A DNA stretch of 64,000 bases. Origin: Sipunculus nudus (lineage: Eukaryota; Annelida; Sipuncula; Golfingiida; Sipunculidae). Both the position numbers and the translations under genes were made by a program. The stretch is from the NCBI GenBank assembly GCA_026874595.1, contig CM049322.1, positions 39,364,840-39,428,839 on the forward strand. Direction: 5' to 3'. This document shows, piece after piece, positions 53,463-59,129 of this stretch. Within the stretch, counting starts at the first letter, position 1. Every line of letters starts with the position of its first letter. The notes under the pieces are model-generated. The model was not told the origin of the DNA, did not search any database, and saw only the letters and a list, made by a program, of their open reading frames with translations.

Positions 53463-53517
<55 letters not shown>
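53463..53517. repeat. (AT)n microsatellite
   Basis: About 54 bp AT, directly next to a small TA-flanked element. Confidence 0.95.
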
Positions 53518-53520
<3 letters not shown>

Positions 53521-53695
53521 TGAAACCTCATTGTGTCGAATTCGAAGGGCCCTCAGGAAACTTAGACACATCCCAGGTTCGACACAAGCGGGTTTTATTT
53601 GGTTATAACTAGAGTTGTCCGGAATAGCGAGTCTGTTACTTCGACATATGCGGGGTATTCGACTTAAGCGAGTTCGACAAATCGACGTTTCACTG
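53518..53695. mobile_element. Pogo/Tc1-type MITE (CAGTGAAACCTC), 178 bp
   Basis: Left CAGTGAAACCTCATT, right GACGTTTCACTG, flanked by TA on both sides as expected for a Tc1/mariner-pogo insertion. The inside is rich in TTCGACA words. No coding. Confidence 0.75.
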
Positions 53696-53698
53696 TAT

Positions 53699-53702
<4 letters not shown>

Positions 53703-53751
<49 letters not shown>
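53703..53751. repeat. (AC)n(AT)n microsatellite
   Basis: About 30 bp AC followed by about 18 bp AT. Confidence 0.95.
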
Positions 53752-54025
53752 ATTACAGTTCAAATATATTACAATTAGGTATTAGATTTAAAAGAATAAA
53801 GTATTATGTTTCCAGTAAAAGTTTATTCTAAACCAGGTTGAAATATGAAAATAAAATGGAACCAAAGTCATTATACATCTATTTTTTAATATGTTTCATT
53901 TACAATACATAAATTTAATTCTCTGAAAAGTGGGTGAATTACATTGACTTTCCCCGATAACAAAAAAAGTTAATTGGGAGGGTTATATTCCCCCTATACT
54001 CCCCCTATTTTGACGCCCCTGCTTG
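53750..54025 (+). repeat. Dispersed repeat, direct copy of 46060-46400
   Basis: See shared words ATGTTTCC.GTAA and GGAACCAAAGTC. It ends just before the lysozyme 3' end. Confidence 0.6.
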
Positions 54026-54223: not shown

Positions 54224-54363
54224 TTATTGCCAGCCATGAATATCGATAAGCGCCTGCATACGTGCTATGACGTCATTGGAGAAATCATTGTTCGTTGTTC
54301 CGGCGTCCACGTTTTCCCATGATTCAACATTATCCACACCTTTATTGTACGCCGCGATGCCAC
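54224..54363 (-). CDS. LYG: Lysozyme-like exon 6 (last)
   Basis: 140 nt after the acceptor cgccag. It encodes GGIAAYNKG, then the conserved [14 protein letters not shown] block and the C-terminal IHGW, ending with TAA at 54226-54224. This is the best conserved part of the protein. Confidence 0.9.
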
Positions 54364-57300
54364 CTGGCGAAAAATTATATTAATAACAAGATTATAATTT
54401 CAAGACTGAATTTCTGTGAAATATTTGAAATACCATGTCTAATTTTTCTTTTATATCTTTATTGCAAATTCTTCGATAAATATAACGATAAAGTAAAAAT
54501 GTATTTTTCTTCTTTCTGTTGTATGACATTATAAAGACTGTACAGGCTTAATCGAATTTCGTCAGGGCCATCGATAATTGCATTTCTTTTCTGCATCCAG
54601 AGTTAGGAAAACCATACAAAGTGTACTTTCCGACAGGCTGGGTTACACTTAAAGTGTACGTATCTGCCTTGTAGGTTTCTTGCATTCGAAAAATATTCTG
54701 ACGTCATCAACGTTTTCCTCATAACATTGACGATGAACTTGAGTATTCTTTATAATGATTACCAAATATTCATGAACTGATAACCACACTCTCAAGAATT
54801 CTGGAGGACAATTGTCAGTAACAGCTGAAATGATCACACTGCGCAGACTCGCACTCACAAGTGTAGGCCTACGACTCTGCTGTTTAGGGATTGTTGGAGA
54901 CAAAATCTGACCCCCACAATGCACCGGGGCTTCTAAATACACAAGCGGCTTAGGTATTACGGTAGTGAAGAGAACCATGTAGTCTGTTCATGTTTATTAT
55001 ATAAGAAAGGTTTTAAGGCGAAATCGATATACTTGGGCGGTTTCTTGTCAAGAACTTTACGGTATAAGTAATATTTTGTAAGTATGCTCATGTGGAAATT
55101 AAACAGGTGTTTTCTTTAAATGTAAAAAAAAGATTTTAGATTTTGACAGTTGAGACAAGAATTCCTGCCTCCCCACAATGCCCAGACAGAAGAGGTTCTT
55201 TTAAAGTCAAAAATACCTCTGGCGGCAGAGTGCTTAAATGTTACACGTTGGTCATGCACGATAATCGTAAAATGATTTAATAAATGCGTGACGTCACAAG
55301 ACTGTGAATATTCATGAACATTTGGTTATACCTTGAACTTGCATTTCAATCGTCCAGTCTGGAAATTTTTGTCTAACTCCCATGATCCTCGGTATGAGGA
55401 CTTGGTCAGTCACCATGGCAATGTGCTCACAGCTGTCCCAGGGGTACACTTCACATCCCTGTCCTAGACCGGAGTTCTGAAGATGACACTAAAAGCAAAC
55501 CACTGTGTTCGTTATGAATACTATAATATTATGTCTGAAGAAGACAATAAATGAAAACTGGTCTGTGGATTATGAATAATTTATAAGTAATTGACCAAGC
55601 GGAATTTTACAGATGATACTAAAAGCTGAACAGTATGTGCTATGATATTTCACGAGTAACACTGACCAATCAGAGCTTCTACTGACGTCTTCAATAAAAT
55701 GTATATGATAACTATGAGTGGACATACCTCTTCGCACTTTCTACAGGACGCTATCAATATCAAGAGAAACCAATTAGGAATCTCGAGGGAATTAATGGTG
55801 TCAGTTCTGATGAAAGCAGGGGGAAAATGCAACTCGCGAGAACGGTGCCCTCCCTTCACTTTAATTTCAAGTTGATTTGCTTGCTGCAGCGGCAGTCTGT
55901 ATACAGTTACCGTGATTAGAGATATCTCATTGGCCTCAGATTTATACCGAGTACTATGCAGCCAGGACTCAGTCACCCGATGACTATGTTTACCTTAAAG
56001 GGACATGATCAGGAGCAATATTATTCCTATCCTTTCACACTATCAGTTCAGTTTTGCTTTTACAAACGTTTACAGCAATACCATCCTAGCACACAGTTTC
56101 GGTGCCTCACAATGGGCTGTTTAACACCTTGTTATGCCGCTCTGTGTTAGTAAACAAAGTCTCCGTGTGTCTCGTGACCAAAACAAGGCCGCGAGACCGG
56201 TGAGATGTTTCAGTAGCGTGAACATGTATAACATTTTTTGGGCCATGTCAGTCAGGGCTTCTCCGGATTGACACGTGTTGGGGCTCGAGCGATGCACGCG
56301 ATGTGTTTTTGTTGACACCTGTTGCTGCGCCTGGTCCACTATTTTTAACAGTCGTTTACAGGAGTAAGCAAACGGAGAGTACGTCCCTCTTATTTTTACA
56401 AGGCGTTCAGACAGGCATTCAGAATGCATCACAAATTAAAAAAAAAATCTAAGGCCATACGTCTTTTCTTGTTGGTTGAGTGCACACGTGTTTATCAATT
56501 TAATAAAGTAAATGTAGCTTGCCTGAAGAATGCCGTAGGCCCTACACACTGGGTTACACGATCCCCATCCATCCGTATCGTAAAGGTTACGACCTCCACG
56601 TGATACGCGGCTGCCAAGTGCGGCAACGAGGGCGGGACTAATACCTATAAATTAGAATTAGTGTTTATATATATATTCAGGCTTTCATGTACAGTAATAC
56701 CTCGCTTAACAACCACCGCCGACCACCTCACAATAACGACCACTTGTTCACGGTCCCAATTCTTTTTTTTTATACATAAGACCTCGCATAGACGACCACC
56801 TCGAAAATCCGACCACTTTAGCAAATTCCTTTTCAGTGTTCGTAAGTTCAAGGTTTTACTGCATATCATATTTCGCGCTTTCTCTGTTGTTCTTGATATC
56901 AGGACAGTATATGTATTCTTAACGATGTAAATATTAACTTACAATATTCCTCTCCGGCTCGGGTGTAACAATGTTTTCGCCGCTCAAGCTCTGCCACATC
57001 GTTAGCAACCATGGTTTGCGAGGCAGGGACCCCTGGTGGTAAAACATAAAACTAAAAGACAAATCTTCATATCAGATTTTGGTTTGCAGAAACAGAAACG
57101 ATTCAGGAGAGCTGTTTGGTGTTTGTAAACAATGACGCCTCGATCAGTTAACAACAGAACACCGTTGGTTCAACATTTAAATACTAAGCTCAACCAGCTA
57201 TCATTACCTCAGTAACACGACCACCTAAAAGGCACGAATCATAACGACCGTCTTAATGAAGCGACCGCCGTGGTGACACTATTGCCTGCTGTGAGAACCA

Positions 57301-59129
57301 CCTCAGTATTACGAACAGCCTAATTACACAGCAACCCCCCCCCCCCCTTTTCGGCAGTCATAACCTCTTTTTAAGCGTTTTACACCCTTGAACCCTCCCC
57401 CTTTTCTGGATCTGTTTTAGGTGTTATCATTTCTAACATGAACCCCTCCTTTCCCTAAATCTAGGATCCACCCCTGACCAGGCACTCCAGCCACGTGACT
57501 TACTTGAACGGCAATCACCACACTATCACCACCATTCTAGTCATGTGACTAACAGCCATGGCAACCATCAAAATAATACCATTGCAATAACAAGACCACC
57601 CCACTCATGTGAATAACTGTCATGATGACCATAACAATATCAAAACCATCCAAGTCACGTGAATAATTGCCATGATAACAGCAAAAATATCACGACCATC
57701 AATTGTCACGTGACTAACTACCACGCCGACCATTACAATACACGATCGTCTCATTCACATGATTAACTGCCATAACAACCGCCTCAATAACACGATCACC
57801 CTAGTCACGTGACTACCACGACATCCACTTCAGTAGCACGACGACCTCAGTGACACAACTACCACCCATGACGAATTTCAGTTGTTTGATCCTGGTCGTG
57901 TTAGCAGGGATTACCTTATTTACATATAAACAAATCTCACCCGAGTACGTGAGGCCGTCCTCTTCGAAAGCTGTATCAAGGCTTGCGCCGGTCGGGATCA
58001 GGGCCGACATGTTGCCATAGCAGTTGAACTGACCGGTCACAACTGAAAGGATTGACAATGGCATCATACACTTTTGATTTTACTTTAGCATTGATTTGTA
58101 TAAAATATAATAAAATATACTCTGCATTCTATGAAATGCAAGCCTCCACCATGAGGGCGGTCCTTATCCTGGGGTGCTCACAAAACCGGCTTTGCATTTA
58201 CTTATTCGATCCAAATTACCAGGTTAATTCGTGAATAAGTAACTCTACATATATGAATATTCCTTGATATCGTTGCTGAATCCGATCATGTATCGGATCC
58301 TCACCAAAAGCTGATCGGTTCTTCATTGGCCCATTCACGAAATGCCCTGAAATTTCATGAGATCCCGTTCATGACTGTGTGAAACAAACACACAAACACA
58401 TACACAAACACAAACGAATTGTACAGCATTTCATCTTAATGTATGATAATGTCTTTCCAGTATTTCCCTTGAGCACCATATTATAATCATAAAAGGTTGA
58501 AATGATCGTCAAATATTGACATGGAATTCTCTTACATTTCAGGGTTCTGTTTTTTTTTTATATTTCTGATCGTAAATGTCTTTATTATGTGAAAAAAATA
58601 ATATGTACTATCACCGAGGACGTGGCGTATACAGGAATATACAAGCATTCTGCCTCTCGGCTATATCTATGGTGCATTAAAAGGATCCGCTAATAATACA
58701 TACAGACGAAAATTTCATTTGATTCTTGCATTTTGAAAATAGCATTTGAAATATTAGTTTTGAGAAAATAACATATTCTACAGTAACACTATATCGAGAT
58801 TCAACTACGCACTATTGGCCTATTATTTAAATACCAACTGATTTTTGTTGATTTAGGGATATATTTTTAGCTAAAGTACAATCAGTTGATAAACTTTAAT
58901 AAATAGAGTTGAATGCAAACTCTAAACTGCGTTCAAAACTGACTTAGCCTGTGAATATCCCTCAATGTATTACATGATGAACCGGGTTCTGAATATAAAT
59001 TTTCAGGTCTCTCTGCTTGTGACACACACACATAGAGGCATTATATATGCCGTTTTAAACTGGACTGAAAAAAAATAATTGAAACTTACAACCGGCAAGG
59101 CTGATTACGGAGGCTAGTAAACGGAACAT
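54224..59129 (-). CDS. LYG: Goose-type lysozyme-like protein lacking the catalytic residues (6 exons, 212 aa)
   Basis: Exons on the minus strand: 59129-59090, 58042-57941, 57032-56943, 56644-56523, 55476-55332, 54363-54224; total 639 nt with consistent phases (1,1,1,0,1) and a TAA stop. Residues 1-17 are a signal peptide, so the protein is secreted. Family landmarks follow in order: CYGN...PTGAS...DGL.YSGVPAS (21-52), RAGEEYC (72-78), [15 protein letters not shown] (80-95), DGWGS (102-106), YGILQ (114-118), QKFPDW, then GGIAAYNKG and [12 protein letters not shown] near the end. Goose-type lysozymes cut bacterial cell-wall peptidoglycan, with Glu73, Asp86 and Asp97 as key residues. Here these positions are Val91, Ser106 and Ser120, so hydrolysis is unlikely. 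Seven Cys (21, 69, 78, 107, 111, 126, 134) suggest a disulfide-stabilised extracellular protein. No frameshift or internal stop is present, so it looks maintained, possibly as a binding protein or inhibitor. Family call very sure; lost activity inferred. Confidence 0.9.
54838..55240 (+). repeat. Dispersed repeat, copy 2, in lysozyme intron 5
   Basis: Direct copy of 34860-35270, lying between lysozyme exons 5 and 6. Confidence 0.65.
55332..55476 (-). CDS. LYG: Lysozyme-like exon 5
   Basis: 145 nt between catcttcag and gtataa, phase 0 in and phase 1 out. It encodes the segment after [13 protein letters not shown], then WDSCEH and QKFPDW. The third usual acidic position (QVD in goose lysozyme) reads QNS. 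Confidence 0.85.
56523..56644 (-). CDS. LYG: Lysozyme-like exon 4 (former catalytic exon)
   Basis: 122 nt from ttatag to a GC-type donor (CAG|gcaagc). It encodes [17 protein letters not shown] and then [17 protein letters not shown]. In active relatives the same helix reads ..ISRES.. with the catalytic Glu, and WGD with an Asp; here they are Val (codon GTA) and Ser (codon TCG). Flanking residues are well kept, so the alignment is not in doubt. Confidence 0.85.
56692..56861. mobile_element. Pogo/Tc1-type MITE in lysozyme intron 3
   Basis: Left (TA)CAGTAATACCTCGCTTAAC, right AAGGTTTTACTG. The inside has ACGACCACC words. It lies 48 bp upstream of the former catalytic exon in transcript direction. 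Confidence 0.65.
56943..57032 (-). CDS. LYG: Lysozyme-like exon 3
   Basis: 90 nt between taccaccag and gtaagt, phase 1 at both ends. It encodes [19 protein letters not shown] and then RAGEEYC, matching the family segment GVxASxxxAxxDLxxM...AGxxYC. Confidence 0.88.
57340..57480. mobile_element. hAT-like element end in lysozyme intron 2
   Basis: Poly-C run, TTTTCTGGATCTG, CTAAATCTAGGATCCACCCC and TGAC: a diverged right end of the 10540 family. Confidence 0.4.
57488..57845. repeat. 50-bp minisatellite with CACGTG boxes, lysozyme intron 2
   Basis: Seven diverged units, mostly 50 bp, each with GTCACGTGAC or a one-base variant (57490, 57540, 57604, 57654, 57705, 57754, 57804) and AACTGCCATGA..ACCAT. 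Confidence 0.8.
57941..58042 (-). CDS. LYG: Lysozyme-like exon 2
   Basis: 102 nt between cctttcag and gtgaga, phase 1 at both ends. It holds the mature N-terminus: Cys21-Tyr-Gly-Asn, then PTGAS and DGLTYSG, typical of the goose-type family start. Confidence 0.88.
58125..58415 (+). repeat. Dispersed repeat with CACAAACA tail, lysozyme intron 1
   Basis: Plus copy of the 24905 family, with GATCCTCACCAAAAGCTGAT, TTCTTCATTGGCCCATTC and ACAAACACACAAACACATAC. Confidence 0.7.
59090..59129 (-). CDS. LYG: Lysozyme-like exon 1 (signal peptide)
   Basis: 40 nt, ATG to GGT T|gtaagt, phase 1. It encodes [13 protein letters not shown], a hydrophobic leader completed by the first codons of exon 2. A ctctttcag tract about 50 nt upstream on the same strand could be the acceptor of a 5' UTR intron. 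Confidence 0.8.

Follow-up and report, generated by a model that had tools for sequence, protein, structure and literature searches.

The stretch of DNA considered here, hereafter the window, comprises 64,000 nucleotides (64 kb) of the genome of Sipunculus nudus (assembly GCA_026874595.1, contig CM049322.1, positions 39,364,840 to 39,428,839 of the forward strand). On its minus strand, at 54224-59129, it encodes a goose-type (g-type) lysozyme in which all three positions that serve catalysis in the goose enzyme carry other residues. An initial annotation of the window had proposed such a gene with six in-frame exons, and these were recovered when we rebuilt the gene from its splice sites, the start codon lying at 59129 and the TAA stop at 54224-54226. 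The frame is open throughout, without a stop or frameshift across its 216 codons and six exons, which are as follows (splice junctions within motifs are marked here by a slash):

59090..59129, minus strand: exon 1, with the start codon and the hydrophobic N-terminus; its last codon is split and its donor is GTAAGT
57941..58042, minus strand: exon 2, in which the mature protein begins, with a CYGN..PTGAS block
56943..57032, minus strand: exon 3, 90 nt, a length equal in all nine paralog models
56523..56644, minus strand: exon 4, with the catalytic helix, Val91 (GTA) at the Glu73 position and Ser106 (TCG) at the Asp86 position, and a GC donor, CAG/GCAAGC
55332..55488, minus strand: exon 5, its start corrected to 55488, with Cys119 followed by His120 (CAT) at the Asp97 position
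54224..54363, minus strand: exon 6, with the GGIAAYN block, the C-terminus and the stop codon

The start of exon 5 bears directly on one of the catalytic positions. Two candidate acceptors lie 12 bases apart, both of which preserve the frame. The one at 55476 was rejected, and the upstream one chosen, because all nine paralogs described below start exon 5 at the upstream site, where the AG is immediately followed by TGT-GAC (Cys-Asp) in eight of them and by GGC-GAC (Gly-Asp) in the remaining one, paralog F. At this acceptor the window gene reads TTTTAG/TGT-CAT, giving the protein context GILQ-C-H and a corrected product of 216 amino acids in place of the 212 of the first model. The reading of the QVD motif as QNS in the initial annotation was mistaken, because it depended on the wrong acceptor; the residue at the Asp97 position is His120. 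At the other end of the protein the N-terminus is hydrophobic by inspection, and the signal peptide assigned to it is a prediction from that hydrophobicity; a scan of the paralogs found candidates for a corresponding exon 1 in three of nine.

In a phmmer search residues 20-204 of the first 212-residue model matched swan lysozyme g (1gbs) with E 2.6e-36, followed by goose and further lysozyme g chains, which bears out the goose-type identity first proposed. Identity to the three aligned vertebrate sequences, which are partial, is 40 to 42%. Because a Pfam search of the protein returned no family even at E 10, the family assignment rests on the PDB sequences and the paralogs. For the latter, two protein searches of the genome (1.43 Gb in 153 contigs; 42 and 49 matches, whose counts are lower bounds) placed g-type exons at 11 or more places, the window gene included:

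47.04-47.21 Mb, same contig as the window gene: paralogs A to E, five genes
C17:39509500-39519000 (about 39.51 Mb, L039), minus strand: paralog F, exons 2-6 open
C17:39476500-39486000 (about 39.48 Mb, L038), minus strand: copy G, frameshifted, about 55 kb from the window gene
Contig C13 (L040, L041): paralogs H and I, exons 2-6 open
Contig C1: paralog J, exons 2-6 open

The counts over paralogs given here cover the nine genes with open exons 2-6; G is excluded because its frames are broken, its exon 4 match running through three frames and that of exon 5 through two. In G the Glu73 position is altered as well (ASRDS), and we read this copy as a nearby relative in decay. The nine models were built from splice anchors, with the exon 2 start of D shifted by one base, and their exons 2-6 and intron phases agree with those of the window gene. 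By identity its nearest paralog is A (59%). The protein tree places the window gene beside the A-E group and not with its physical neighbour F, at very low support (27.5 in the Shimodaira-Hasegawa-like approximate likelihood ratio test, SH-aLRT; bootstrap 21), and the split uniting A-E without the window gene receives 79.1 and 22, respectively; its branch is long, 0.51 versus 0.12 for A. Judged by sequence, the window gene belongs, in diverged form, to a g-type (GH23-like) lysozyme family of many genes.

A comparison within this family confirms that all three catalytic positions are lost, and that the helix and the WGD motif had been read correctly. Glu73 of the goose enzyme, which is Glu in 9/9 paralogs, is Val91 in the window gene, in a helix reading GSRVSRGG; Asp86, which is Asp in seven paralogs and Glu in the other two, is Ser106, so that WGD reads WGS; and Asp97, again Asp in all nine, is His120. 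A family-wide loss of Asp97, suggested by tblastn alignments that end short of the exon 5 start, was rejected, the Asp being present in every paralog. Set against the codon most frequent among the paralogs at each position, GTA stands for GAG, TCG for GAC and CAT for GAC, differences of 2, 3 and 2 bases. The window gene accordingly has neither the Glu73 nor the Asp86 and Asp97 by which a muramidase is recognized.

These losses stand in an otherwise conservative protein. Across the nine paralogs 45 columns are invariant, of which the window gene alters six (D24N, I84V, E91V, D120H, L169V and A206M); when the three partial vertebrate sequences are added, 32 columns are invariant and four of them are altered (I84V, E91V, D120H and L169V). 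Among the universally conserved residues that are not catalytic 28/30 are kept, and the other two changes (I84V and L169V) are conservative. The chance that both catalytic columns should fall among 4 altered of 32 is 0.012, and with position 86 added the chance of 3/3 among 5 altered of 33 is 0.0018: three catalytic losses in one gene exceed chance expectation. In a leave-one-out control, which leaves 45 to 55 such columns for each paralog, the number altered ranges from 0 to 10, and no paralog replaces Glu73 or Asp97.

The window gene shares its eight cysteines with paralogs A, B, C and E, which likewise have eight. There is one additional cysteine in D, and H and I contain ten; in J the number is again eight but some positions differ, and F lacks cysteines altogether. 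Further likenesses come from the g-type lysozymes of molluscs as described in PMC3448621. The mussel genes MGgLYZ1 and MGgLYZ2 share with the window gene six exons and a 90-nt exon 3. The four cysteines that this source gives as conserved in its alignment of mollusc sequences (Cys60, 69, 107 and 129) are all present, and the mussel substrate-site residues Ile104, Ile132, Gly163 and Gly183 map to Ile116, Ile141, Gly172 and Gly192, 4/4 being kept; this mapping was made by hand, by counting positions from the conserved Asp and Cys with residue names taken solely from that report, and is not a sequence alignment. The AYN motif is likewise retained. In contrast, the mussel and other mollusc enzymes keep Glu82, Asp97 and Asp108 (mussel numbering), whereas the window gene has Val, Ser and His and encodes an acidic protein; both recombinant mussel enzymes are reported to be active. 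We use the label mollusc-type for this family solely on the strength of the cysteine and exon pattern of PMC3448621.

Some of the paralogs depart from the common plan in other ways. In paralog F the catalytic acids are kept, yet exons 2-6 encode no cysteine, compared with eight to ten in its relatives. H and I read WGE for WGD, and some 12 residues rich in cysteine are inserted between WGE and GILQ. Upstream of paralog I, on the minus strand at L041 7485-7535, there is also a short, weak likeness to exon 2 (AGRYFCYGSVILSDHTG), perhaps a remnant or a chance match.

Goose lysozyme loses its activity when Glu73 is replaced by Ala or Gln (Kawamura 2006 as cited in PMC4914998); changing either Asp reduces activity 10 to 300 fold, according to the goose and cod mutagenesis summarized in the same source. 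Val91 can be no substitute for Glu73 because Val cannot act as an acid, and by analogy with these mutants the window protein would be expected to lack muramidase activity and not to cut.

There are repeated reports of duplicated g-type families in which one copy has lost its catalytic residues (PMC4243810, PMC11576321, PMC4914998). Mammalian LYG1/LygA1 is likewise one retained copy of a duplicated family in which the catalytic residues were lost (PMC4243810, PMC11576321); its lineage differs from that of the window gene, the loss was presumably independent, and the two are likened by description only. Teleost LygF2 of medaka and tetraodon is a known fish copy with lost catalytic residues, in species whose other copies keep them. 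In cod, LygF1a and LygF1d have Glu changed to Ala and other g-type copies keep the residues (PMC4914998). The cod copies are reported to have no signal peptide, whereas the window protein has a hydrophobic N-terminus, and cod LygF1a is about 95% identical to the active LygF1b, as against 59% between the window protein and its nearest paralog. Among invertebrates, Lottia LYZg3 is described with one change, that of a catalytic Asp to Tyr, and two genes of the sponge Corticium as not conserved at the catalytic residues (PMC11576321); together with human LYG1 these two sponge genes and one Lottia gene are the exceptions given by Mukherjee and Moroz 2024 (PMC11576321). In the literature searched, with supplements outside its scope, we found no mollusc g-type lysozyme described without all three residues, and this statement carries correspondingly little weight. 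With its predicted protein the window gene repeats the known pattern in a mollusc-type family, namely one altered copy beside unaltered ones. The 2014 survey that noted dead g-type lysozymes retained in several vertebrates left their function open (PMC4243810). The present mollusc-type case, for which nine sister genes serve as controls, suggests a recurrence of the pattern beyond vertebrates, and offers a tractable comparison for what the g-type fold does once cutting is removed.

Whether the altered gene is maintained was examined on a codon tree of six genes, i.e. the window gene and A to E. A single omega gave a log-likelihood (lnL) of -3109.17 with omega 0.218. Freeing the window branch gave lnL -3103.71 with a value of 0.055, which is unusable as an estimate because the branch is saturated, and fixing that branch at omega 1 gave lnL -3137.69, so that neutrality is rejected for the branch average. 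In a drift model a constrained segment of the branch was followed by a neutral tail, and 198 non-catalytic codons were set against the three catalytic ones. For the 198 codons the best tail is zero; a tail of 0.2 substitutions per codon costs 1.9 lnL units with six genes or 1.7 with ten, and one of 0.5 costs 6.2 or 5.5, respectively. The three catalytic codons fit a long neutral release, longer than the rest of the gene permits, and lnL is lower by about 10 units when they are tied with the remaining codons to one release time. The same decoupled pattern would result if the replacements had been positively selected. Constraint has acted across most of the window gene branch, and probably also after the catalytic loss.

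The reading that we favor, and hold to be probable though some way from secure, is that the gene encodes a secreted g-type pseudoenzyme, maybe still binding cell-wall glycan without cutting it, that is kept by purifying selection. As in other pseudoenzymes the catalytic motif is lost and homology is kept. The changes Glu73 to Val, Asp86 to Ser and Asp97 to His would have made a member of the family non-catalytic, with the remainder of the protein held by purifying selection. The product would be secreted and would fold as a g-type lysozyme with the cysteines of its close paralogs, and its cleft may be occupied by peptidoglycan or a related glycan without hydrolysis; given that the cleft residues and cysteines are kept, glycan binding without cleavage would be the simplest use. 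It might then act as a recognition or modulating factor alongside the active paralogs. The initial annotation had likewise proposed a pseudoenzyme kept by selection, and this stands insofar as the branch rejects neutrality, the six-exon frame is open, and fold residues, cysteines and substrate-site residues are kept; it is loosened insofar as a recent neutral tail is allowed.

Several points weigh against this reading. The codons are consistent, within 2 lnL units, with a neutral tail as long as about 0.2 substitutions per codon. The synonymous distance to A is saturated pairwise and omega has no usable point estimate. The cost of coupling shrinks to about 4 lnL units when position 86 is left out, as was done in one variant because two paralogs show it to be changeable, and, had the ancestor carried synonymous codons (GAA, GAT) or Glu at position 86, the codon changes could come down to a minimum of 1, 2 or 3, and 1 bases. 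Under simulated drift (202 codons, stops only) the frame stays stop-free with probability 0.42 for 0.1 substitutions per codon, 0.19 for 0.2 and 0.013 for 0.5. The exon 4 donor at 56523 is GC, forming a GC-AG intron, in the window gene only, with GT in 9/9 paralogs; GC donors within a CAG/GCAAG context can function, and this one could be a first step of decay. The gene model is itself drawn from genomic sequence alone. Finally, among the ten proteins that of the window gene has the highest acidity (net charge -11, isoelectric point (pI) 4.6), with A at -5 and pI 5.2, I at -6 and pI 5.5, H at -1 and pI 6.8, and B, C, D, E, F and J at pI 8.7 to 9.4; such acidity would urge caution on glycan binding.

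This last point leads to the main functional rival, a signalling or immune-modulating protein like mammalian LYG1 that binds no glycan, to which we give a minor but substantial chance. The protein is strongly acidic, unlike a typical cell-wall-seeking lysozyme such as that of the swan (pI 9.4, from a partial sequence). Moreover, human LYG1 is described as lacking the catalytic Glu and Asp (PMC11576321), mammalian LygA1 copies as having lost activity (PMC4243810), and LYG1 as a classical secretory protein with a reported action on T cells (PMC8273552). The retention of the substrate-site residues and of AYN is nevertheless more simply understood as glycan contacts or as fold constraints.

Somewhat less credible is a recently dead gene, in which an active or pseudoenzyme copy has just lost its function and drifts with a frame that is open by chance. 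Its case is made by the unique GC donor, by the frameshifted sister copy G in the same region and by the permitted neutral tail. Pairwise omega for G versus F is 0.38, compared with 0.27 for B versus C and 0.26 for H versus I; a frameshifted gene that appears only slightly relaxed implies that omega averages are blind to recent death. What speaks for the retained pseudoenzyme instead is that 216 codons in six exons are free of stops and frameshifts, that the non-catalytic universal residues are kept but for two conservative changes, and that the neutral release fitted jointly by the three catalytic codons is longer than the remaining codons permit.

We regard as improbable, though worth stating, a variant in which the protein is an acidic non-cutting decoy or regulator that occupies peptidoglycan or absorbs PliG-type bacterial lysozyme inhibitors, thereby freeing the nine acid-bearing paralogs. 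If true, the members of a single expanded lysozyme family would divide labour among themselves.

It is very unlikely that the protein is still an enzyme, with Asp100, Asp102, His120 or a different chemistry supplying catalysis. Asp100 and Asp102 do adjoin WGS, His120 stands at the Asp97 position, and the named cleft residues are kept, but paralog F, with a catalytic set of its own, reads TDGWGD and so shares Asp102, which is therefore not the special compensating residue that it had been suggested to be, and the loss of activity in goose Glu73 mutants (PMC4914998) speaks further against it. Equally hard to credit is an error of gene model or assembly, with the acids lying in another exon or the codons being sequencing errors: the wrong exon 5 start shows that such slips occur, but four exon-4 queries of the 64 kb window gave the known exon 4 as their sole significant match (all others at E 0.07 or more), so that the alternative exon 4 envisaged earlier is rejected and no other source of the acids is evident in the window, codons lying 2, 3 and 2 bases from the commonest paralog codons are beyond single errors, and the genome protein searches show no second near-identical copy.

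Elsewhere in the window, among about 43 stop-to-stop open reading frames of 90 amino acids or more, ten others had no Pfam match above the curated cut-off, two of these ten having weak matches below it, and a search of Rfam yielded nothing at gathering scores. Long runs of TA and CA dinucleotides, at 53470-53760, flank the lysozyme gene on its 3' side.
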